From contig NC_062220.1 in NCBI RefSeq assembly GCF_902686445.1, positions 96,596,143 to 96,660,142 of the forward strand: 64,000 bases of DNA, given 5' to 3'. A model generated the notes under the pieces. It was not told the origin of the DNA and made no database searches. It was given only the letters and a program-made list of their open reading frames with translations. This document shows positions 6,701 to 55,280 of the stretch, one piece after another. Positions within the stretch are counted from its first letter, which is position 1. Each line of letters opens with the position of its first letter. Made by a program: the position numbers and the translations under genes. This DNA comes from Sciurus carolinensis. Lineage: Eukaryota > Chordata > Mammalia > Rodentia > Sciuridae.

Positions 6701-7540
6701 ATTCTTAAATAATGCATCTCCAATATCACTTTTCTGTAGATATAATTATGGGTAACCAGATTAGTGACAAATTTTAAATTTTCCACTTAGTGTATTAAAA
6801 AAGTAAAAGAAACCAGTTAAAACTAGTTTTAATGTTATTGCTCTATAATCCAAATGTCCAAAATATAATCATATCAACATTCAATCAATAGAAAGTTTAT
6901 TGAGTTATTTTGCATTCAAAGTCTTATCCTTGACTTAGGGGTTCACTGATGTGGGACTTTTCTAAGAACTTGGAAGCTGGGAACAAGAGTAGCCTCTCTG
7001 TCTCAGATTTTTAACAATTTGGCAGGAAATCCAGTCTTTCATTCTTGAAATGTTTTACAAAATATTTTACTTATGCCTTCTTCAGGTGAGGCATAAAGGT
7101 TATTTGTTACTCTAAGTCTTAAAATATGGTTTGTATTTTACATCTACAGCCCATCACAGCTTGAACCATTGCAGTAGCACTGTTTAAGGGCTTACTAACC
7201 ACATGGAGTCAGAGGTACCTGGATTGATCAGTACAGTTTATTGTTCAAATAGGGCAAAACTATGAACTGAGAACCTTCAAACAGCTCCCTTCCAATAATA
7301 TGGTTCACTGAGTCTGCAGCACGATATAAACTCCTCTGTCTTTAGCCTTATCCTCTTAAGTATAGTGGAAGTAGAACATCTGGGGTATTGGGGAGATCCT
7401 ATGCTGCTAAGGGGCAGGGGAAGGGGCTTTTGAACTTCCATGCCACAGGGAAACCAAAGGGGCCAAAAGTCTGTGAATATGTCTCAGGTTTGGCCAGATC
7501 AGGTAGTAAGACACATTTTTACGCAGAGACTGGGGAATTT
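3767..7540. other. Copy A intergenic DNA without a gene
   Basis: It holds the CTCF-motif segment, a GTTT microsatellite (about 5,009-5,035), MIR-like sequence near 5,150-5,330, and poly-T runs at 4,155 and 4,530. A pair of similar blocks at about 6,570-6,670 and 6,965-7,065 both contain a GGAAACAAGAGTAG/GGGAACAAGAGTAG stretch followed by CCTCTCTGTCTCAG-like sequence, a local duplication. Open frames are short and fit no known family. Confidence 0.5.
4881..4898 (-). promoter_or_regulatory. Predicted CTCF site, copy A
   Basis: Minus-strand reading GACACTAGGTGGCGCC fits the CTCF core CCASYAGRKGGCRS at every position but the first. It lies about 1.1 kb upstream of the TRGV9-like leader and is identical in copy B (48,328-48,345), although neighbouring bases differ. 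CTCF sites near V segments help loop antigen-receptor loci; binding here is inference from the motif. Confidence 0.55.
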
Positions 7541-7553
7541 TGTGGGACTCTGC

Positions 7554-7982
7554 TGGTTCTAGGTTGCACAGTGGTAGATGCCCTCAAAACCATTCTCTAG
7601 CTTCACAACAGGGCAAGTTATGACATCCTTGGTGTTCAGGTTGCCATTTTAATCCACTTTCAGGACTGACTTTCACTGCACCTCCCTGCTGAACATGTCC
7701 AGCTGGAGGAGTCTCTGGAGGACCTGGCCCTCCTGCTGCTGGTACCAGTGGATGTAGCTGACCCTGGTGTGGACTAAGCACTAAAGAAAGACCAAGCTTC
7801 CCTTGCATGCTAGGACCTGGGCTGGCTGCTGCAGCATGAGGAGCGACTGACCGGATGTGAGGGAGAGCAGAGAGGCAAGGGTGGCCCGATTCCTGGAAAC
7901 CTCTGCAGATACCACCCTGCAAGAAGGTGGGAGCCTTACCTGGGAACAATAAGGCCCACAAGACAGTGAGGTAATCTAACAT
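7554..7982 (-). pseudogene. TRGV: TRGV pseudogene (subgroup-1-like)
   Basis: Leader exon 7940-7982 encodes MLDYLTVLWALLFPG with a good GTAAGG donor. The probable V exon starts at 7846 after GGTCAG. The V part keeps the first conserved Cys, the framework-2 motif SYIHWYQQQEGQVLQRL and a terminal ENGFEGIYHCAT, matching human TRGV2-8 (IENDFGVYYCATWDG). A TAG precedes the first Cys, further stops and frame changes lie in framework 3, and TAG stands where the Trp after CAT is expected. The sequence after the V end (CAGCAGA) is a poor heptamer. It has no evident partner in copy B. Confidence 0.82.
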
Positions 7983-15580: not shown

Positions 15581-16247
15581 AAACAAAAATGGCCAACTAG
15601 ATCTTTGCAACTCAATTTCTTGAAGTAATGTTCTCTGACATGTGGGTAGATACAAAAGTTAGCATATGTACAACAATCACTTTTTCCTCTGTTCTCACTT
15701 ATACCAGCAGTACCATGGTTGCTTATGGTGAGGGAAATATCAGTTTGTTCCAAATAATAAGAATTATGACTACCAACATGAGGTCTTCATGAAGCGCAAA
15801 TATTTCATTCTATCTTTTTCATAATTCTGAGTAATGAATCAGTCATTCCCAGACTTTATCTGTAGGTCTTGGCTGGAAAAATGACACAGTGGAACTGCAA
15901 CTTGCCTTCCACAATTCTCACCTAAATGTCACCTTTAACTGATCAACCCTAAGAGACCTTGTGTTCCTAGCCAGCAGATTGAATGTGCCTCCACCAGGCC
16001 CTACGAGACCTGAAAGAATAATGCTGTCAGCCACAATGCTTAGCCAGGACAGGAGACAGCAGTTCAGGAGTTTGGTCTTGGGGTGCAAATGGGGGCAGGG
16101 TATAACTGTTGAGAGGGGGGTGGGGTAGATAGAGGGTGGGAGTTAGGTTTGGGTTCATGGTTTCCCTTTGTTCAGAGCACAGTGAGGTCAGGGGCTGGAA
16201 ATGGAATGGGAGCTGATCTAACCGTGTACCAGGAGCAGACATAGCAA

Positions 16248-16286
16248 CATCTTGAGTACAGATAAAGGCAGGTCTGAACCACTGTG
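16248..16286 (-). promoter_or_regulatory. 23-RSS of the subgroup-1 V pseudogene, copy A
   Basis: Consensus heptamer CACAGTG (16280-16286) directly follows the V end. A 23-nt spacer begins GTTCAGACCTGCC and is followed by CTCAAGATG as the nonamer (16248-16256; consensus ACAAAAACC, poor match). The same spacer start is seen in copy B, so the RSS is inherited from the duplicated ancestor. Confidence 0.7.
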
Positions 16287-16730
16287 CTCGTCCAGTAGGC
16301 ACAGTAATACACAGCAGAGTCACTTTCTTCCACATTTCGTACTACGAATTTACATCTCCCATCTCTGACTTTATAAGCATCATATTCCTTGAACTGATTC
16401 CTGAGTCCACCACAACCTTGGAATTCAAAGTATTAAAGTAGAGAAGTCATCGTGGAACCTTCCCCTCCTTGAATTGGTACCAGTGGACATAGTTCCTTGC
16501 TTCATGTAAATCACAAGAGATTGCCACATATGTCCCAGGTGAACTTGTGATTGACATCATTCTCCCTTCCAAACTGGAAAATGTTTGACTGCCTGGAATG
16601 GTAACAACAATAAAAATTAATGAGAAAGGAGAATGTGAATTCTTTACTATGGCTTGCCAATGGGGGAAAAATACTATGCCACATGCTTACCAGGAGGCAG
16701 GACCTCTAGAAGTAGGGCTAGAATCCACAT
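16287..16730 (-). pseudogene. TRGV: TRGV subgroup-1 pseudogene, copy A
   Basis: Leader exon 16691-16730 encodes MWILALLLEVLPPG with a GTAAGC donor. The intron is 98 nt and V exon 16287-16592 follows TTCCAG. Framework landmarks are SCDLHEARNYVHWYQFKEGK and, after one frame change, EESDSAVYYCAYWTS. This is the family of human TRGV2-8 (TCDLAEGSNGYIHWYLHQEGK). Lesions are a TGA at 16447-16449 just after framework 2 and a 1-nt frameshift in framework 3 (around SSRN/YDAYK). Both canonical cysteines and Trp41 remain. It is best read as a young pseudogene of a formerly normal V segment. Confidence 0.9.
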
Positions 16731-19723: not shown

Positions 19724-19866
19724 TTAGGAGCTCTTCCCATGGCTACAGACAGCTGTTCTTCTTAGCAGACAATAGGTGACGATGGCCAAGTAGATCCCAC
19801 TCTTGAGGAGCAGGAGGAGGTAGGTGTAGTAGGCAGAGGTATTTGTGAGCTGCAGTCTCAGTGTAC
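19724..19866 (-). CDS. TRGC: TRGC exon 3: transmembrane and cytoplasmic part
   Basis: The exon starts after a T-rich tract plus TTTAG and is 47 codons long with the codon split at the exon 2 junction, ending in TAA at 19724-19726. The peptide has an N-glycosylation site (NTS), then a membrane segment around [17 protein letters not shown] with the central Lys used by gamma-delta TCR to pair with CD3, and a short tail [14 protein letters not shown]. The length equals the human TRGC exon 3 part and the match is close throughout. Splicing to exon 2 is in phase (A|GT, Ser), creating an additional N-S-T sequon at the junction. Confidence 0.96.
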
Positions 19867-21988
19867 CTAAAAAAAAAAAAAAATGTGCAATTCGTTTCCC
19901 CTCTTCTTTGACAGGAAAGAACCCCCTCATGGGGGAGGGTGCCACAGATGTTTATTTTTAGTGACCTGCACTGAAGTGACACCACCTACACCAAACCTCA
20001 AAAGTCAACATTTATCACCCCCACCTGAACCAACAACAGCAAGATTCAGCTTGCAAGTCAAGTCCATTAACAGCTTTTGCCATACTCAGAACCTTCTCAA
20101 TGACAAAAAGTAAGGTTCATTTTTAATGTTGAGGTCCATAGGGGTCAAACGTGTAATGATTAGGTTTTAGATTTTCTTCAACTCCAATATGTCTCAAACT
20201 AAAAATAGTAGATAATATTCACTAACTACTAACCAAATGCCAAACAGTATTCTAAGAGCTTTGCATTTAAAGATTTAGTTTTATTTAATCTTTAAAACTA
20301 GCTCTGAGAAGAAGAAAAATTATCTCCATTCCCATCTGCACACTAAAGATCTGAGGGTATGGATAAAAGTAATTTTATTGATGTCAAGCATTTATTAAGT
20401 GGCAGTCCCTGATTTTGGCCCCAGCAATCTGACTTTAAAGAAGACATTCTTATCTACTCTGCGATTCCACATTTCCAAGGGCAATAAATGACCTAGACAT
20501 CAAAAGATTAATCCTAAGTATAAATTTGAGTTGCTGATTTAGAAGCATGTGAGACATTGCAGACTATGCCTGCATGCAATGGGACCATTAGAGGGATTAA
20601 TTGGTGGAGTTTGGTGGTGTTCACAGCAGAGCAAGTGGGAGATTTTAGAGAAGAGGGCACTATGAAAAATAGAAGAAAGTAGTTATGCAAAATTTCGGGA
20701 GACAATAGGTTGCTGGGTCACAGTCACCTTTCTTATCTGAATGTCTTGTTGATGCTGTAGCATTTTGGGGTAATTATACATAATATCCTTTGAAGTTTTA
20801 CAAGTAATATGTGATTCATATAAGAACTAAAGATAATGACAGTGGGCCACAGTAGTTAATCAATGAGCCACAAGGACAGGTCTCTTCCTGTGGAAAATTC
20901 CACATACATGTTCCATCTTCATAGATCAGAACTCAAGAATCATTGACCCTGAGTGTAGAAAGAAATGTCAAGAAATGTGTCCATAACTCCCTGCTCTAGG
21001 TCAGATGTGGGTTCCAGGCTCTCCTTGCTGGTGTGGCAGCTGAGATTCAGATCCGGGACACTGGTAACAGAGGAAAGGTGAGCAGGGCTGGAACTAATGC
21101 CTCCAACCATATATGTGCGTATGAAGGGAGAAAAGGGCCAGAAACTAGAACTTATTCTCAGCTTGCTAAAGATACCCTTTGCCAGACATTCATATTCAAT
21201 GTAGGTGAGTCTGGCAAATTATTCTCTGTTGGTAGATGAGCAAAGTATTACAAAGTGAAAGTCCCTCACCCCAGTAGATACAACTGATGATTACGAGAAT
21301 GGGGGAACAGTTCAGTCTGTGGTTGCTGAGGTCCCTGCACTTCCAACCCCCACCATGTGTCCATCTTGCCTTAAGACGAAGACTCTGGAATTTCTTACTT
21401 TGAGACTATCTTAGAGGAAGAATAGAGAACTGAGTAACTCTTCATTTGAAGGCATGAGTTGAAACCCAAGGTCTGGCTGTGTGACATGTGCAAGTGATAT
21501 AATTAATTGTAGCTCATCACCTTCATCTGTAAAATGGGGGGAACTATCATACCACACGATGGGAGTATTATGAAGATTAAACAAAAAAAAATGCATGCAG
21601 AACACAGTCCAGGAACCTCTGCACAAAAAGCATTCAGCAAGTGCCACTTTACTTTATTAATACCTATCTAGAACATTTTTTTAAACCAGAAATAACTTGA
21701 AATCACCTTTTCCCAAATCATTAGAAGCAATAGAAGTATTTTTGTTGAAATGATACATAGCATGTCACTGTAACCTGTAATTGAAGTCATTTCTTCCCCA
21801 AATCTGTAGTGGACTGTGTTAATATCATGCCTAGAAATGATGCATTAATTTAATACATGACTCAATCTATTCTGTAATATCTAGTCCTTCTTGTTTTTCT
21901 GCATTAAGCCAGGAAAGTACAAAAGTTAACATATGCAAGAGAGAAAAATGCTAAAGTATGACATGATGAAAAATACACTAAAACTTAC
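19867..21988 (-). other. TRGC intron 2
   Basis: Non-coding intron with MIR-like stretches (about 20,260-20,350 minus and 21,465-21,590 plus, the latter with CATCTGTAAAATGGGG). No exon duplicate (extra connecting-peptide exon, as in human TRGC2) was recognised. Confidence 0.6.
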
Positions 21989-23197: not shown

Positions 23198-23527
23198 CTT
23201 TCTTTATTGCAGGAAAGAGAACCTCTTGATTGCCTCCTCCTTTGTTATTCTCATGTTTGACGATACACCTGTGCTCTTTATCCATTGACTCTTCAGTCAC
23301 AGTTAGCCAGCTCATCTTCATGTATGTGTCGTTAGTCTTCATGGTATCTCCCTGCTGGGATTCCAGAATCCTATCACCACCCTTTTCTTTCCAAAATACC
23401 TTAATAACATCAGGGGAGAAGTTTTCAAGAAGACAAAGATGTGTCCCAGTCTTGTGGAGATTTATTTCAGAAACTGAAGGAAGAAAAATCGTGGGCTTGG
23501 GGGAAAGGTCTGCATCAGAGATTTTAT
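23198..23527 (-). CDS. TRGC: TRGC exon 1: constant Ig domain
   Basis: This is the T-cell receptor gamma constant region C-type Ig domain, expressed at the T-cell surface as part of the gamma-delta TCR with CD3. The exon is exactly 330 nt, as in human TRGC. It is preceded by TTTCTCCGCAG and followed by GTATGC. It begins, with the G supplied by [19 protein letters not shown]. The domain cysteines are at residues 32 (HLCLL) and 88 (HRCIV), with Trp46 in VFWKE, and one N-glycosylation site NDT is at 66. Exons 1-3 give about 170 residues with no stop or frameshift, so the gene appears functional. Upstream, on the minus strand, are a TRGJ1-like relic (28.4 kb) and the joined V-J exon (32.1 kb). Confidence 0.97.
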
Positions 23528-26130: not shown

Positions 26131-26411
26131 AAATTTTATTTTTCCTTTTTTTTTTTTTTTTCCAGGACCCAGGACCAAATCCAGGGCCTTGAGCAAGATA
26201 GACAAGGGCTCTGCTGCTGAACTAAATCCCCAACCCCAGGAAATTTCTTAAAAAAATAATTGGTTTCCTCGTTTAAGAAGAAAAGACTGAAGTTCTCAAT
26301 TTTTACACAAAAGTCAGTTAGCATATAATGTCTACATTTTTGAGCATGCTATAAATATAATTGAATTATACTGTGCTTATTTTAATTTTGTACATCTTGC
26401 TGGATCTCATG

Positions 26412-26592
26412 TAATCTTGCTGGGTTCATACTGTTATCCCATTTTATGGATTAGGAAATTGAAACCAGAGAATGATCCTCCACATTCACTAAGCAGTGAG
26501 TGGTGAAGCTGGAGCCAATGAAGCTCCAGGTCTGCCTAGGAGCAAAGAACAGACTTCTCTTCCTGATTCCTGACCATAATTATAGACAACAA
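26412..26592. repeat. Dispersed 181-bp duplicate, copy 1
   Basis: This block is repeated without gaps at 27,933-28,113, exactly 1,521 bp further on. I count about 7 differences in 181 positions. It contains a MIR-like core (CCCATTTTATGGATTAGGAA). Flanks of the two copies are not alike, so this is a transposed rather than a simple tandem duplication. Confidence 0.9.
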
Positions 26593-27932
26593 GTGCTCAT
26601 AGTAAGATACTGTATACTTCTCCATCACATGCTTTATTTTTAATTCAAAAAGCATATTATAAAAGATAAGATTAGTTTTTCAAATCTGTATTATAGTTGT
26701 ATAGTTTGAGTCACTAGTCCATATATCAACAAATCTAATTTTTATTTTAAGAATATGTTTCTTCATGGGAATACATCCGATTCATTATAATACAAAAATT
26801 GAAACTCAAATGTTAAACTTGAAAATTTTCTTCACAGCAACCCACCATGCATTGTCTCCTTCTTTAGCTAAACTTGTTTCATTCTTTTGAAGATAAAATG
26901 GATCTCAAACATCTCTGACATCCTCAATGTAACAGTTAATTGGGCATTAAATAGCGTATTTGATTGTAATGGAAAGTAAATTTTTTCTGCTTTGAAAGAC
27001 AAAGTTCTTTAAAACTTCACTTTTAAATGTACTTATTAAGAGTGTTTTTCATGGTCAAATTTTTTCATAAAGCATAAAATGCAGCCACTCTATTTAATTT
27101 GAATAATGAATAGAAGAGTTACCTTGTATTTAATTCATTTTTAAAAATGACAGAACCTGTTCAATTCATTTATGTATATTAATTTGCAAAATCATAATAC
27201 ATCATGAGTTCAGTTGCCTAGCTTATTTGTATTTTAAGATTTGCAGGATGAATTCCATATAAATTTATCAAATATCATCTGCATTTTCTGTTGAAAGTAA
27301 GATATTTGAATTTTCCTGTAAGAATTTAAGTATTTTCTACTTTGTTTTTCACGCTTCAAATCCAGAGCTATAGATATTTCACTTTTAATATATATTTCAG
27401 ATTTTTGATAAGTTTCAGACTATTTAACTGATTTATGTAGACCATTTTCTGTATGAACTTATTTCTGTATGAACCTTATTTGTCAGGATAAAGTTCTGTA
27501 TGAATTTTTTCCTGACAAATATGAGCAAAAATCTTTTTATGTTGACAATAAATTAGAGGATAAATATTGATGTTAGTTATTATTAGTTAAGATAAAGTAT
27601 TAAAATTCAAAACACATAAAACAACAACAAAAATTTTAAGAAACATTTTAGTATAGTTTTTCTTGCCAAGTGATAAAAAAGTCTGCTAAAGATAAACAAG
27701 AATCTCTAGATTCAATTTTATTGTGAGTAAATGTTAAGATAACCTTCTATATAAGCAGTTAGAAGTACCCCTGAGTCCTTGGCAGAATTTCTGCTCTGTA
27801 GTAAATGTTTTTGGCTAAAAACAACTTACCATAGTAGAGAAGTTTCTCTCTTTCTATTTGGATCAGAAAACTTATTATGGTTTGAACAATATGCCAACAA
27901 CTCTATTCATATTATCTCCTTCAATTCCCATA

Positions 27933-28113
27933 TAATCTTGCTGGGTTCATACTGTTATCCCATTTTATGGATTAGGAAACTGAAGCCAGAGAATGATCCT
28001 CCACATTCACTAAGCAGTGAGTGGTGAAGCTGGAGCCAATGAAGCTCCAGGTCAGTCTAGGAGCAAAGAATAGACTTCTCTGCCTGATTCCTGACCATGA
28101 TTATAGACAACAA
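27933..28113. repeat. Dispersed 181-bp duplicate, copy 2
   Basis: This is the partner of 26,412-26,592. Here the MIR similarity seems to continue beyond the upstream edge (CAACAACTCTATTCATATTA precedes it), so this is the likelier source and the other the derived copy. Confidence 0.85.
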
Positions 28114-32147: not shown

Positions 32148-32668
32148 CGGAGGGAGAAACTATGAGCTTTGTACCTTCTCCAAATATCTTCATCCAGTCT
32201 TGGCTATATTACCACCCTGCACAGTAGTACATGGCTGCATCTTCTTTTTGTATGGAATATATGGTAAGAACTGAAGACAGAGTTTGAGAATACTTTTTTG
32301 CCTCAATTTTATTGTTCATCCCATTCAAGGGACCTCGAGCTGCGGATTTTGTTGAGGTAACTTGAATCAGATGCTCAAAAGTCTTATTCGTTTCTTCCAG
32401 TACCAGTGAATGACTTCAGTTTCAAAATTGTGTGCTGGATATCTTGCAATTTATGTTAACACTTTTCTTTATTTCTGCAGAAACAGATACATCAGACTGC
32501 TCCAATTTTGACAATCCAATTCCAACTGTGAGTTCAAAAGGAGAAAATAAAAATATGAGAAGAAAACATGGAAGAATTACTGCAGTCACTCATCAAGAAA
32601 GAATGAAATGGTCAGACTGACTTACCAGTCCAGAAGGAGAGGAAGCTGACAGCTTGCAGCAGTGACAT
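32148..32668 (-). pseudogene. TRGV10: Joined TRGV10-TRGJ gene (V and J fused in the assembled DNA)
   Basis: Leader exon 32626-32668 encodes MSLLQAVSFLSFWTG (human TRGV10 MSLLEAFAFSSWALG) with a GTAAGT donor. The 100-nt intron ends CTCACAG. The second exon (32148-32525) begins GIGLSKLEQSDVSVSAEIKK, has NCKISS (first Cys), and ends EDAAMYYCAGW (second Cys at 32221-32223). The next codon is TAA (32209-32211) and then, in the same frame, YSQDWMKIFGEGTKLIVSPS, a full-length JP1/JP2-type J (human JP1 ...WFKIFAEGTKLIVTSP). It ends G|GTAAGT at 32148, in phase with TRGC exon 1. No heptamer or nonamer lies between V and J. A one-T insertion in framework 1/CDR1 (TTTTGAAACTG) makes a TGA, and a 1-nt loss in framework 2 restores frame. 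It cannot encode a chain as written. Confidence 0.9.
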
Positions 32669-34021
32669 GTGACTGCCAGGCTATGTCCTTAAGAAATGGG
32701 GACTTGGTGGTCTGGGTGACTCAGGTCATTGTCAGGAGGGCGTGGTCTGAAGTGAGGAGAGGGAAGGAAGAGGTGGGTTAGATGATCCTTGGTCCCTTCA
32801 GTGCTGGCTGAGACTCAGCACTGTACTCATGATAGGGTTCTTTGCATGAATGTGAGACCAAGAAGGTGCCCTAGCTTTTGTGAACATGCCCAGGAGCTAT
32901 TTTATGAATTCTTTTTCTCAGCCTCCTATTTTGCATGTTACATTGTTTAATAAATACTTTCATAATCACAAATATGCAATGAACATTTTCTACTTACTAT
33001 GCATACCTTCTTTTTTCAAAATGTTCTCCTCATTTTTAACCTCAACTGTGTTCACACAGCGTGAATACTTGTAGTTGCACTTTATAATTGAGAATACTGA
33101 GGTACAGAGAATAGAAGTGGCTTCACAAATTCATGCAGTTGTTAAGTAGAACATGCTGGCGAAGATACTCATGATGAAACATAGAGAAACAGGCTAAAAA
33201 TGAAAACAAAACCATCAATGATTACATAACCAAGACCAACAACTATCATTGGTATGGTGTGTTAACTTCCAGATTTTCTTTGTAGGTATATGGATATGAA
33301 TATAATTCTGTGGCTGTAAATATTTATATACATATAGGATTTTGTATTATTCTGTCAGTATGACAATATCACTGAAGTATTTTCAGTGTCTACATTTATT
33401 AACTTTATCACTTCAGAACTTCCTGACTGGTGCAAATTTCTTCACCTCATTGTGTCTGGATTGCTTCATCTAAAAAGAGTTGCAATAATCACATCTCTAT
33501 CAAAATTTTATGCATATTGAATAACATATCTAGTACAGTTTCTAATATATAGTCTATTTTAGTTTTATTATTACTGCTACTACATTTTAAAATTTAGCTT
33601 CCCCTTCCAGTCAACCACTTCATTTTCTTTCTTAAAATGCTCTGGTGATTATTTGAAGCAATGACCTGTGTAAGTCAAGGAAAATCATCAAACATTTTTA
33701 GTATTTCTTTTTGCCCATCAGTGAGCCTCCATTTGCTATGTTCTTTTCTTCAACTGAGCCTTGTCACTCTCATTTGAGATTTCCATGTGGTTTCTTCTGA
33801 AATTTGGGTGTATGAAAACTCTTTTTGCTCTGGATGCTGGTTATCCCTGACCTTTTTTGCAGGTCTGTCAAGTCCCATGTGTGGTATATATGAACTCAGC
33901 CTCCACAGGGCCTCCAGAGAAGAAAGGAAAAGAACCAGTTGGCTCAGATGGCTGCATTTTCCCTCCCAGGTAGCTGCCCCATGTCCCTCTTTTCCACTAA
34001 ATGTCATTTCTGAGGTGCTCA
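32669..34021. other. Upstream flank of the joined gene, no other gene seen
   Basis: AT-rich sequence with a MIR-like minus fragment near 33,055-33,125. The first 100 bp upstream of the leader start would hold the V promoter; I recognised no clear TATA box or octamer. Confidence 0.45.
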
Positions 34022-45700: not shown

Positions 45701-46312
45701 CAGAAATGAACTATTGCACAAGCCCATTCCAAAATAGACTTGGACTTGGACTTCTTTAGAAGTGATTAAAAGTTTTGTGTGAAATTAAATATCACCACCC
45801 AAAGGCATGCATGAGAAATGTCTGTCTTCACAGTCAGCCCTGACTGTGTTTAGATCATGCAGTGTCTGCCACATTTTAGCCTTTAGAAAAATGAATCTTA
45901 TTAAATCTAATACACTGTTTTAAATTGCTCCAGATAGGTGGATCAGAGATACTTAATGTAATGTAAATTTACTAGTACAATGAAGTTGCAAAAAATGTTT
46001 GTATATTTTAACAGAAAAAAAAAAATCACAAGTGGGGAGTTTGGCCCAGATAAATAAACATGCATGACCTAGAAAATATGTGGAGAAAGAAAATGTGTGA
46101 AGGGATGAGGTTGAGCACTTGTACAATGTTACACAAAATCTCCTCTTTGAGAAAATATAGGTGGTAGCAACTCTGCATAAATTTACCACATGAGCTACCA
46201 CCTAGAAGCCTGTATAAAATCACAATCATCCTAACTATGGTTTCCCAAATCATAATAATAAATGAAAAATAAAGATCGCTTATTGACTGAGATATCTCTG
46301 TCTGGTACTTTG

Positions 46313-46613
46313 CACCTCCTAGCAAGCACAATAGTAGGTAGATGAGTCATGTTTCTCTGCATTATGAATGGTGAGGGTAGACATAGAAGTCTCAGGTTTC
46401 TTGTCTACTTCAAGTATGCCAAATGCAATGCCTGATTTTACGTTCTTGGTATTGTCATGTACATCAGGAGCTGCGTGGTGTGGCTAGGTCTATCCTGATA
46501 CCAGTGTAGGGACATTGCAACAATGGTTACCCAAGACATCTTACATTCCAGACATGCTATTTTAGGCAGAGATTTAGTAAAAGAACATTGATATTGCTTT
46601 AGGTGATGTGCAC
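46313..46613 (-). pseudogene. TRGV9: TRGV9-like variable segment pseudogene, copy B
   Basis: The V exon has recognisable TRGV9 order: TKSLPKIACLECKMSW (human TKTLSKTARLECVVSG), LHWYQDRPS, a frameshift, then [18 protein letters not shown] and [20 protein letters not shown]. The codon after this is TAG where TRGV9 has Trp, followed by EV. The heptamer is CAAAGTA (46306-46312), a decayed form. The 5' end is interrupted by an A-run on the plus strand (46,615-46,640), and I could not find an intact leader; only a faint trace lies near 46,715-46,735. Non-functional. Confidence 0.85.
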
Positions 46614-46640
46614 CAAAAAAAAAAAAAAAAAAAAAAAAAA
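46614..46640. repeat. A-homopolymer at the 5' edge of the V9-like exon
   Basis: An uninterrupted A-run of about 26 nt (T-run in gene orientation) sits directly upstream of the codons AHHLKQYQ of the pseudogene, where copy A has the CAG acceptor region. It may be an expanded polypyrimidine tract or the remnant of an inserted tail. Confidence 0.7.
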
Positions 46641-48327
46641 GTGCCAGTAGATGGGAAAAAAACCCTGCAACTTTGAAAGAATTTCAAAATGAAAGAATAT
46701 CAACCTAAAAGTTAGTGGATGAAGACAACAACCTATAGGTCTGAAAGACTGCCAGAGACATTTCTGATTGATGGACTGAGGTCCCCTCCAGAGAATCCTG
46801 AGTCACTGCTGAGAAGAGGTTCAGATTGGCTGAAATGACAAGTCAAACTCCCCATGAGTGTGGGTGAAACCTGACCTCCCCACACAACTCTCCTGCCTAG
46901 CTGTGAATGGGGTCCCCACCACCTGTGACCACGTCCACTCTGTGTGGACTGCTATACCCTGTCCTCCAACTTACATTAGACCATGGAGTACAGGAAGCAT
47001 CTCAGAACTATGAGATGACCCATGCGCACCATCAGTACTCAGGAAGGTCCATGATGGGCCAGGCATGGTCCCTAGTTGTTTGAGATGCAGGTGCAGTGAA
47101 GTGGCTCCTGACCACAGAGAACTGTCCAATTGAGAAAGTATGACTTACATCTGTGGTCTTGTTCTTTTCTTGTTTTATCTGTTACCTTTCATAGAGTAAG
47201 TCCTCCATAAATTACCGGTGAGCTGGAGTGGTGGATGGTCAGGCTGTGCTGTGCATCATTTGGTCCACAGAGAGCTTGTCTTCACCCAGCTGGAGACTTT
47301 GGTTCATCAGTTAGCTGACCCCTGTTCAGCTACTCCCACACTACAGCATGGGGTCACCTGGCCATTCCTGGGGGCTGGCTTCTGTTTAAGTGTGAGGTTC
47401 ATGTCCCCTCCCAGTTACCTTAACTACACATCTCTACTAAACACCGGTCTCCCCAATAGGAAGCAGTGTTCCCTCTATGGATTACTGAATTTTCTTTCTC
47501 TGTTTTTCTTTTAAGACATGTAAGCTATGCAGGAATGTTTTTATAAAATACTTTTTTTCAATCACCCCCTTAAAATTCGTTGTATAGATTTCTGTTCTCA
47601 CTTTACCTATTCTGCCTGAGTGGTGGCTCCCCCATTGGTGACTTTAATTATCCTGTAGAGGAGGAGAGAAGAGATGATGGGACATTACTCATCCATCTCC
47701 AGTCCACTCCTGTTTCCTGGGCTCCATGTGCACATCTCCAGCTCAGACAGCTACAAGTTTCTCTACACAGGACCTCAAAGTGAAAGTGAACAGAGACAAT
47801 GAACTCACCCCCTAAGGCAAAACAGCTCCCTAACCCAGGGATCACCACTGCTCACTCCAGGGACCTGAGTGTCAGCCTCAATTCTCTCTGATTTTTCATA
47901 CTTCAATTGCTGTGGATTCTGCTACCTAAACATTCCCTGGCTCACCCTGCCTTCAACCACTCTTTGCCTTGTGACCAACTTGGTCCCTCCCTCCCAACTT
48001 GCCCACCACCTGGGGACTGAGCTCACCTAGTCACTTCCCTGCTTAGGTTTCTTCACCCTGCTCAACTCTGCTTCTGAGATTCAAGTTCAGAGCTGTTAAG
48101 ACCTGAGGCCTCTATGAGGTGACACCTCCTCCCTTCCCTTCTGTCTTCAGCCACTCTCTCCCCAGAATCACATGATCCAAATCTATGGCTTGACTGGCAG
48201 TTTTCCTGTCTGGACTACTGTATATCCCACCCTTCCTGCTCATCTTGAGACAGAGCTCAGCACTGTCTCCTCTAGGAAGCTTCTCAGCCAGGAAGTCAGG
48301 GGTGGATGTGCCTCCAATTGCTTTCTA

Positions 48328-53900: not shown

Positions 53901-54810
53901 GATGAGCCTCTGCAAACATCGTCCAGAGGATCTTTGTCAAGCACTGGATGGAATTCCAGACGCCCCCGCAAGTCCCTCTGCTTGTCACCTGATGCCACCA
54001 ATCTGCTCTTTGCACTGTGCTGCATCCTTGTTCTGCTCAGACTGCCATGCAATCACAAAAGTTGTCACACCCAGCAGAACTTGGATATGTTTTGATAGAC
54101 TGGATGCCACCATGTTCGTCAACCACAAACAAAAGGCAATTCATTTCGCACTAGAGGAAGTTTTATTCTTTTTCTGGTGTAATTAGTTACAATAGTATCT
54201 TACTCACATATGTAAGTAGATACAATGGTTGGCAAATCTATAGCAAGCTCTTTTTTCTTGTGTTCTCATTCATTGAGCCAGTAGCATGGTAGGTTAGAGT
54301 GAATGAAAAATCGGTTTATTCAAAAGATAATAAACACAACTCTCAGCATGAGGTCTTCATGAAAACCAAATCTTTCTCTCCACCAATTCTCATCACCCTG
54401 AATAATGAATAAGCATCATTCCCAGATATTATCTCTAAATCATAATTGAATGATTTAATACAAACAACCTTCAGCAATGCTCACCTAATGGTCACCTGTA
54501 ACTGATCAACTCTAAGTGAACTTGTGTGTCCTAGGCGATAGATTAAATGGGATTCCCCCAACCCCTAGGAGAGCTGCAAGAATAATGCAGTCAGACAGGC
54601 AGCTTGGCCAAATTCTGGAGATGAAGGCTCAGTTTTAAGAAAAGTACTAAGTTACTGTTGGAGGCAGAGGACAGTTGTTGAGAGGGATAGATATAGGGCC
54701 AGAGTTAGACTTTGAGCTTATGGTTTCCCTTTGTTCTGAGTACAGTGAGGTCAGGGGAGGAAGTGAGATGGGAGATGATCTAGCCTGTGTACCAGGAGCA
54801 GACTAAGCAA

Positions 54811-54849
54811 CATTTTGAGTATAGATGAGGGCAGGTCTGAACCACTGTG
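54811..54849 (-). promoter_or_regulatory. 23-RSS of the subgroup-1 V pseudogene, copy B
   Basis: Heptamer CACAGTG (54843-54849), 23-nt spacer starting GTTCAGACCTGCC, nonamer-position CTCAAAATG (54811-54819). This is the same architecture as copy A with a slightly more A-rich nonamer. Confidence 0.72.
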
Positions 54850-55280
54850 CCTCTCCAGGAGACACGGTAATACACAGCAGAGTCACTTTCTTCCAGATGT
54901 TGAACTACAAAATTACAGATCATCTCTGAGTTTAGCTAAGTATGGTATTTTCCTGGAGAGAACCTTGAATCCACCACAACTCTGAATTGGAAGAAGTAAT
55001 AGAGAAGGCATCCTGGGACCTTCCTCTCCATGGATTGATACCAGTGGATATAGTTCCTTTCTTCATGCAAATCACAAGTGGTTACCACCATAGACCCAGT
55101 TGGCCTGGTGATTGACATTCTCCTGTCCAAGATAGAAGATGTTTGACTGCCTGAAGTGGTAACAACGACAGCAGTGACCAAGCACTTGCAGCTGTGTGGC
55201 CGGCCTGCAGCTCTCAATGCCTGGTCCTGATCTGCCCGATACAGAAGAGCTTTCCATAACAGGAGCACAGGTCCTAGCAT
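54850..55280 (-). pseudogene. TRGV: TRGV subgroup-1 pseudogene, copy B
   Basis: The leader begins MLGPVLLLWKALL at 55280 but I see no clean splice donor where copy A has GTAAGC. V exon 54850-55150 follows CCACTTCAG. It reads SILDRRMSITRPTGS, TTCDLHEERNYIHWYQSMERK and VVVDSRFSPGKYHT, then TAG at 54936-54938, then VVQHLEESDSAVYYRVSWRG. This is clearly a human TRGV2-8-type domain in one frame apart from the stop. The second conserved Cys is replaced by Arg (CGT at 54864-54866), a change that alone would prevent folding. The frame through the leader intron is open only by chance. Confidence 0.92.

Follow-up and report, generated by a model that had tools for sequence, protein, structure and literature searches.

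In the assembled genome of the grey squirrel (Sciurus carolinensis), a TRGV10-type V exon and a TRGJ segment form a single exon, which raises the question of whether this joint is carried in the germline or was made in the T cells of the sequenced animal. The window, that is, the whole stretch of 64,000 nucleotides analysed here (C8:96,596,143-96,660,142), was considered within a locus of 264 kb (C8:96,486,143-96,750,142) that has no N gaps, and related sequences were sought in the primary assembly (2,815,392,149 bases in 752 contigs). The assembled DNA does contain a genuine coding joint of the V(D)J type, and we put at about one half the probability that it is carried in the germline DNA of the animal. 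Positions are those of the window unless preceded by C8 or given in a C8 list.

The joined V10-J exon

On the minus strand, from 32525 to 32148, the V exon passes without an intervening RSS into a TRGJ of 60 bases, which is followed by the J splice donor. The sequence thus bears out the earlier note, which had described V10 and J as one exon running from the V acceptor to the J donor. The following features can be read directly from it:

32626..32668, minus strand: leader exon (ATG...ACTG), with the ATG at 32668 and the donor GTAAGT at 32625-32620
32212..32525, minus strand: TRGV10-type V exon, with the acceptor CTCACAG before 32525, ending in TGTGCAGGGTGG at 32212 and containing two one-base frame changes
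32211-32208, minus strand: junction bases TAAT, which create the stop TAA
32207-32148, minus strand: full-length TRGJ of 60 bases (ATAGCC...CCCTCCG), of the JP1/JP2 type, with the donor GTAAGT at 32147-32142

The leader matches that of a Marmota monax V10 protein model (P0001) at 12 of 13 residues by tblastn, and the V exon matches the same model at 74% over 105 amino acids and is 89% identical to the unjoined V10 of a neighbouring cassette (cassette 1, see below). The V10 name is based on P0001 and on primate V10 proteins; more generally, the V1-type, V9, V10 and V11 names follow resemblance to human genes, and the name of the JP1/JP2 type follows human J segments. V and J lie in a single frame that is broken by the TAA at the joint and by the two one-base changes inside V, which with respect to the unjoined paralogue are an extra A (CACACAATTTT) and a missing base (AAAC-GAATAAG), so that the joined exon is non-productive. 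The two frame changes may be homopolymer consensus errors, although the cassette 1 paralogue places one of them differently. When translated with X at the stops, the exon aligns from V through J with the solved mouse gamma chain 1ypz_F (E 1.5e-16).

Neither a V-type nor a J-type RSS scored above background at the joint, the best score being 7/16 on each side as compared with 3000 random places each, using the RSS consensus; the claim that heptamer, spacer and nonamer are missing between V and J is therefore upheld. From its first base, the J can be aligned with its counterpart in cassette 1 (78.6% over 56 bases) and also with the J regions of cassettes 3 and 4; a chance J-like motif is ruled out because the alignment extends to three sister cassettes. 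The proposal that a JP1/JP2-type J was joined at the coding ends is supported. A processed retrocopy, already dismissed in the earlier note, is ruled out as well, since the leader intron (GTAAGT, CTCACAG) and the J donor are kept; the colinearity of the DNA upstream of the joined V10 with cassette 1 also counts against it. Scans of the window for J motifs, strict on both strands and looser on the minus strand, turned up no second J.

Four tandem cassettes and a missing V-J stretch

Gamma V, J and C genes of the right kind and in the right order were found in the 264 kb around the window, where four C genes define four tandem TRG V-J-C cassettes, all on the minus strand (C8 coordinates):

Cassette 1, minus strand: V10 at 96,709.5-96,709.8 kb, V11 at about 96,704 kb, J at 96,681,346, a second J at 96,678.4 kb, C at 96,673.9 kb
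Cassette 2, in the window, minus strand: joined V10-J at 96,628.3-96,628.7 kb, C at 96,619.6 kb
Cassette 3, minus strand: V11 at about 96,591.4 kb, J with a lost donor at about 96,581.3 kb, C exon 1 without an open frame
Cassette 4, minus strand: V11 at 96,520.9 kb, J at 96,500.5 kb, C at 96,489.8 kb

V10 and J are 28 kb apart in cassette 1; the distance between V11 and J is about 10 kb in cassette 3 and about 20 kb in cassette 4. Matches to V10 in cassettes 3 and 4 yielded nothing beyond a V11, and the sole unjoined V10 found is that of cassette 1. Cassette 3 appears dead, given its lost J donor and the state of its C exon 1; a 30-base sequence with 87% similarity to the J core is located at C8:96572189-96572161, about 220 bases upstream of that exon.

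Besides the joined exon, the window contains the following elements:

19727..19867, minus strand: TRGC transmembrane exon of cassette 2, intact
23198..23527, minus strand: TRGC exon 1 of cassette 2, intact, with canonical splice sites (Pfam C1-set, 5.6e-10; 1ypz_F, E 2.8e-55)
46300..46660, minus strand: unjoined V pseudogene of cassette 2, upstream of the joint, of the V9 type by resemblance, with a degenerate heptamer CAAAGTA
54735..55153, minus strand: unjoined V1-type V pseudogene of cassette 2, with a perfect heptamer CACAGTG
16172..16600, minus strand: unjoined V1-type V of the next cassette, with a perfect heptamer CACAGTG at 16286
7520-7800, minus strand: badly decayed, unjoined V-like remnant (IHWYQQQEGQVLQRLL ... 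IYHCA) of cassette 3

C exons of the window match a Sciurus carolinensis protein at 49/49 and 47/47 residues, the latter being the identity of the transmembrane exon to P0101. Thirteen of the 14 V genes inventoried in the locus, a count that excludes the decayed remnant as a fifteenth, are unjoined, their heptamers being CACAGTG in seven cases, CACAGTA in three and degenerate in three (CACCATA, CAAAGTA, CATAGTG). A heptamer at 16184 was rejected as the RSS of the V at 16.3 kb, which has its own at 16286. The J-C intron carries a 188-base direct repeat, 95% identical, at 26405-26592 and 27926-28113.

Comparison of the cassettes shows that cassette 2 lacks the V-J stretch, with V11, around its joint. 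Among the matches listed, the V11-J stretches of cassettes 1, 3 and 4 match one another in order over long pieces, and the flanks of the joint are colinear with the sister cassettes, upstream of V10 with cassette 1 and downstream of J with cassettes 1, 3 and 4. Across the locus, the V-J stretches of cassettes 1, 3 and 4 gave 183, 67 and 57 matches, their own places included; within 4 kb of the joint there were only 3, 2 and 0, respectively, and none of these exceeds 127 bases. In cassette 2, the stretches of cassettes 1 and 4 have their longest matches (up to 2776 bases) in a repeat-rich part of the window at 55.7-63 kb, far upstream. Homology to V10 stops at about TGG before the junction, and homology to J begins at ATAG, which is the J start of cassettes 3 and 4; in cassette 1, the J is preceded by GATTTTTGT, 12 bases and CAGGGTG. 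Judging from these bases, the AT before ATAGCC can be P nucleotides of an untrimmed J, and the remaining junction bases can be V end or N nucleotides. Since a stretch of some 10-28 kb is bounded by breakpoints at the V and J coding ends, V(D)J cutting is indicated.

The unjoined arrangement, proposed as a check, is present in the paralogous cassette of the same genome and, by protein model, in Marmota monax. The V10 of cassette 1 is unjoined and decayed, with stops and the heptamer CACCATA, while the Marmota monax gene model, known from its protein alone, reads YYCAGW-STVLELLRQPTQDP, which could encode a CACAGTG heptamer after V. Among named squirrels, Marmota monax was the only one to provide V10 relatives in the protein searches. 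The P0001 model seems to read past the V10 end into a possible RSS and is probably a misannotated unjoined V. As a separate observation, the V10 genes of cassettes 1 and 2 (window 32214-33000; C8:96709500-96710300) have a binned identity of 0.83-0.91 across the exon, the intron and the adjoining flank, which then falls to about 0.7; this pattern looks like a gene-conversion tract.

An inherited or a somatic joint

According to the germline reading, cassette 2 would have been cut next to V10 at its 23-RSS and next to J at its 12-RSS; the intervening DNA, which spans 28 kb in cassette 1, would have been deleted together with V11 and both RSSs, leaving the V end fused to an untrimmed J across about four extra bases. 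This reading supposes that RAG was the maker, that a V11 was formerly present in cassette 2 and that the joint is heritable. With slightly less assurance than that given above to germline carriage itself, we propose that a TRG cassette of grey squirrels contains a V-J joint that was made by RAG and is inherited, which would show that direct deletion, and not retrotransposition, can bring V(D)J products into the mammalian germ line. Germline carriage is favoured by the searches of the primary assembly. All three candidates scored for the joined exon were the exon itself, the V10 of cassette 1 and a V11-type V, with no unjoined V10 of cassette 2. V11 with its flank gave 41 matches (from the best 40 of 742 candidates), of which three are long, in cassettes 1, 3 and 4, and none is in cassette 2; one of the other 38 is a short piece in cassette 3, and 37 lie elsewhere and cover only the last 91 query bases or part of them. 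The finding that 13 of the 14 inventoried V genes are unjoined points the same way.

It can also be the case that a V10-J rearrangement of spleen T cells was taken into the primary assembly, the cassette 2 of the animal's germline being unjoined like the others; we consider this tentatively, as a real possibility, though a somewhat less likely one. The sequenced DNA probably came from spleen, the tissue used for the published grey squirrel assembly, which was built from PacBio CLR and 10X reads and processed with purge_dups (PMC7653645, available part), and the T-cell alternative that the earlier note had raised gains weight accordingly. The spleen source counts against germline carriage, as do the lymphocyte-like features of the joint, namely its clean coding junction, untrimmed J and possible P or N bases. 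An ordinary somatic TRGV10-J joint would have the same anatomy, with a V end, a full J, few junction bases and the intervening stretch deleted. Moreover, human TRGV10 and TRGV11 are rearranged and transcribed though not expressible (PMC7349638, available part), and the mixing of germline and recombined haplotypes at the IG loci of lymphoblastoid lines and of assemblies derived from them is described as a known problem in the part of PMC12146632 available. The J and C of cassette 2 and their splice sites are intact though no free J was found in the cassette, which would be odd in one long dead. A somatic joint, however, would presumably have to outcompete the germline allele of all non-T cells, which would need an expanded clone or an odd choice in assembly. 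It would be expected as a minority allele, in a minority of reads with many different junctions, and the squirrel joint is the assembled reference, which counts for the germline reading. No unjoined V10 or V11 of cassette 2 was found in the purged primary assembly, from which purge_dups may have removed an unjoined haplotype. Nor was any other captured joint found, either among the other 13 inventoried TRG V genes or among the scored IGK, IGL and IGH matches.

The spleen is rich in B cells, and the immunoglobulin loci provide a control in favour of germline carriage, although a weak one, because each V is rearranged in few cells and only the best candidates were scored. The IGK query gave 150 matches (best 150 of 837 candidates), none extending beyond residue 104 of 107 and seven reaching 103 or 104; the IGL query gave 150 (best 150 of 746), four of them reaching residue 105-108 of 110 and many being IGK genes again; and the IGH query gave 109 (best 150 of 248), one of which went beyond residue 100 of 118. 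Twelve places were read, including all seven IGK-query matches reaching at least residue 103, all four IGL-query matches reaching at least 105 (one shared) and two shorter ones, with the IGH overrun among the twelve. All 12 carry V-type RSS-like sequence, ten with CACAGTG (the V cysteine not being displayed in two) and two with near heptamers (CACATTG, CAAAGTG), and the overruns past V are due to nonamers that translate as TKT or GTKT.

This last property is a trap for automatic joint finding, as nonamers such as ACAAAAACC in the IGK V genes (L028, L032 and others) read as TKT or GTKT and mimic a J. The immunoglobulin loci seem fragmented in this assembly (contigs C91, C119, C152, C156 and C162): matches to IGH V fall mainly on C91, and many of those to IGK V fall on small contigs in addition to C13.

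Explanations other than a germline-carried V(D)J joint or a somatic rearrangement are, taken together, unlikely. One would be a germline deletion without RAG through short homology, since the V10 end has GCAGGGTG and the same GCAGGGTG occurs in the J heptamer region of cassette 1. Such an 8-base word, common to the V10 end of cassette 2 and the J RSS of cassette 1, is matched by at least 8 shared bases in 81 of 5000 random pairs, but it is seen in the J of cassette 1 and not in that of cassette 2, whose RSS is gone; besides, a repeat-mediated deletion should leave no extra bases, and GTAAT stands between the word and the J start. We consider this very unlikely. Least credible of all is a misassembly that accidentally united V10 and J, for although the V-J stretch is repeat-rich in the other cassettes, a joint inside repeats is ruled out by the position of the breakpoints at the V and J coding ends, and the 264 kb are free of N gaps.

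If germline carriage is accepted, the joint is probably recent or polymorphic. The earlier note took the frameshifts of V as a sign of long inactivity, which our comparisons do not support. In gap-free blocks, the joined V10 has no stops and differs from the V10 of cassette 1 with a dN/dS of 0.88 (6 synonymous changes, 18 other); residue changes polarised by marmot number 5 in the joined and 9 in the unjoined V10, with 3 undecided (p 0.42), so that relaxed constraint on the pair is likely. Exon 1 of the cassette 2 C has a dN/dS of 0.40 with respect to that of cassette 1, and changes polarised by cassette 4 amount to 7 replacement and 4 silent in the former and 4 and 3 in the latter; such counts give no sign of decay and would be compatible with a short one. 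A motif scan found no other J between the joint and the C of cassette 2, so this C would be unusable in a normal gamma chain from the joined allele, and an inherited allele with intact J and C would therefore be young or polymorphic.

Known joined receptor genes and implications

To our knowledge, no germline-joined TRG gene has been described before, and an inherited joint would be the first germline-joined TCR of a placental mammal. For the germline-joined immunoglobulin genes of sharks, the mechanism usually proposed is the action of RAG in germ cells; as in the squirrel, receptor segments are fused in the genome, but the shark genes encode immunoglobulins whereas the squirrel case is one TRG cassette in one individual. 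A literature search, with subscription journals mostly outside its coverage, found no eutherian case of a germline-joined TRG gene and no paper on squirrel TRG, and nothing on TRG was found in the available parts of PMC13320880 and PMC12090573.

Cartilaginous fish, the only group named in the earlier note, do not complete the list of germline-joined V(D)J genes, since the accessible text of PMC7615758 also names opossum and chicken for immunoglobulins, and marsupial TCR mu has a germline-joined Vj exon (PMC7615758, PMC2275272, available parts). TCR mu resembles the squirrel case in having a TCR V exon joined in the genome, but it belongs to another locus and clade, is used and is invariant between T-cell clones, whereas the squirrel joint is in TRG, keeps its leader intron and J donor, is non-productive and has a putative germline state. 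As for the origin of TCR mu, the 2008 paper weighed both RAG in the germ line and retrotransposition (PMC2275272), and the 2023 paper favours retrotransposition (PMC7615758), as far as the accessible text of each goes. The human TRG locus (TRGV9-V10-V11; PMC7349638, available part) shares with that of the squirrel the V9, V10 and V11 types upstream of J and C; unlike it, the squirrel has four tandem V-J-C cassettes, with V10 and V11 not present in each and with cassette 2 lacking the V10-J stretch.

If the joint is somatic, a spleen-based reference can show a T-cell rearrangement as germline and miss a V gene together with its RSSs, a point of importance when TCR genes are annotated from such assemblies. 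If it is inherited, it would document V(D)J recombination in the mammalian germ line under natural conditions, with three unjoined sister cassettes as controls, and the old proposal that germline-joined receptor genes are made by RAG in germ cells would become directly testable.
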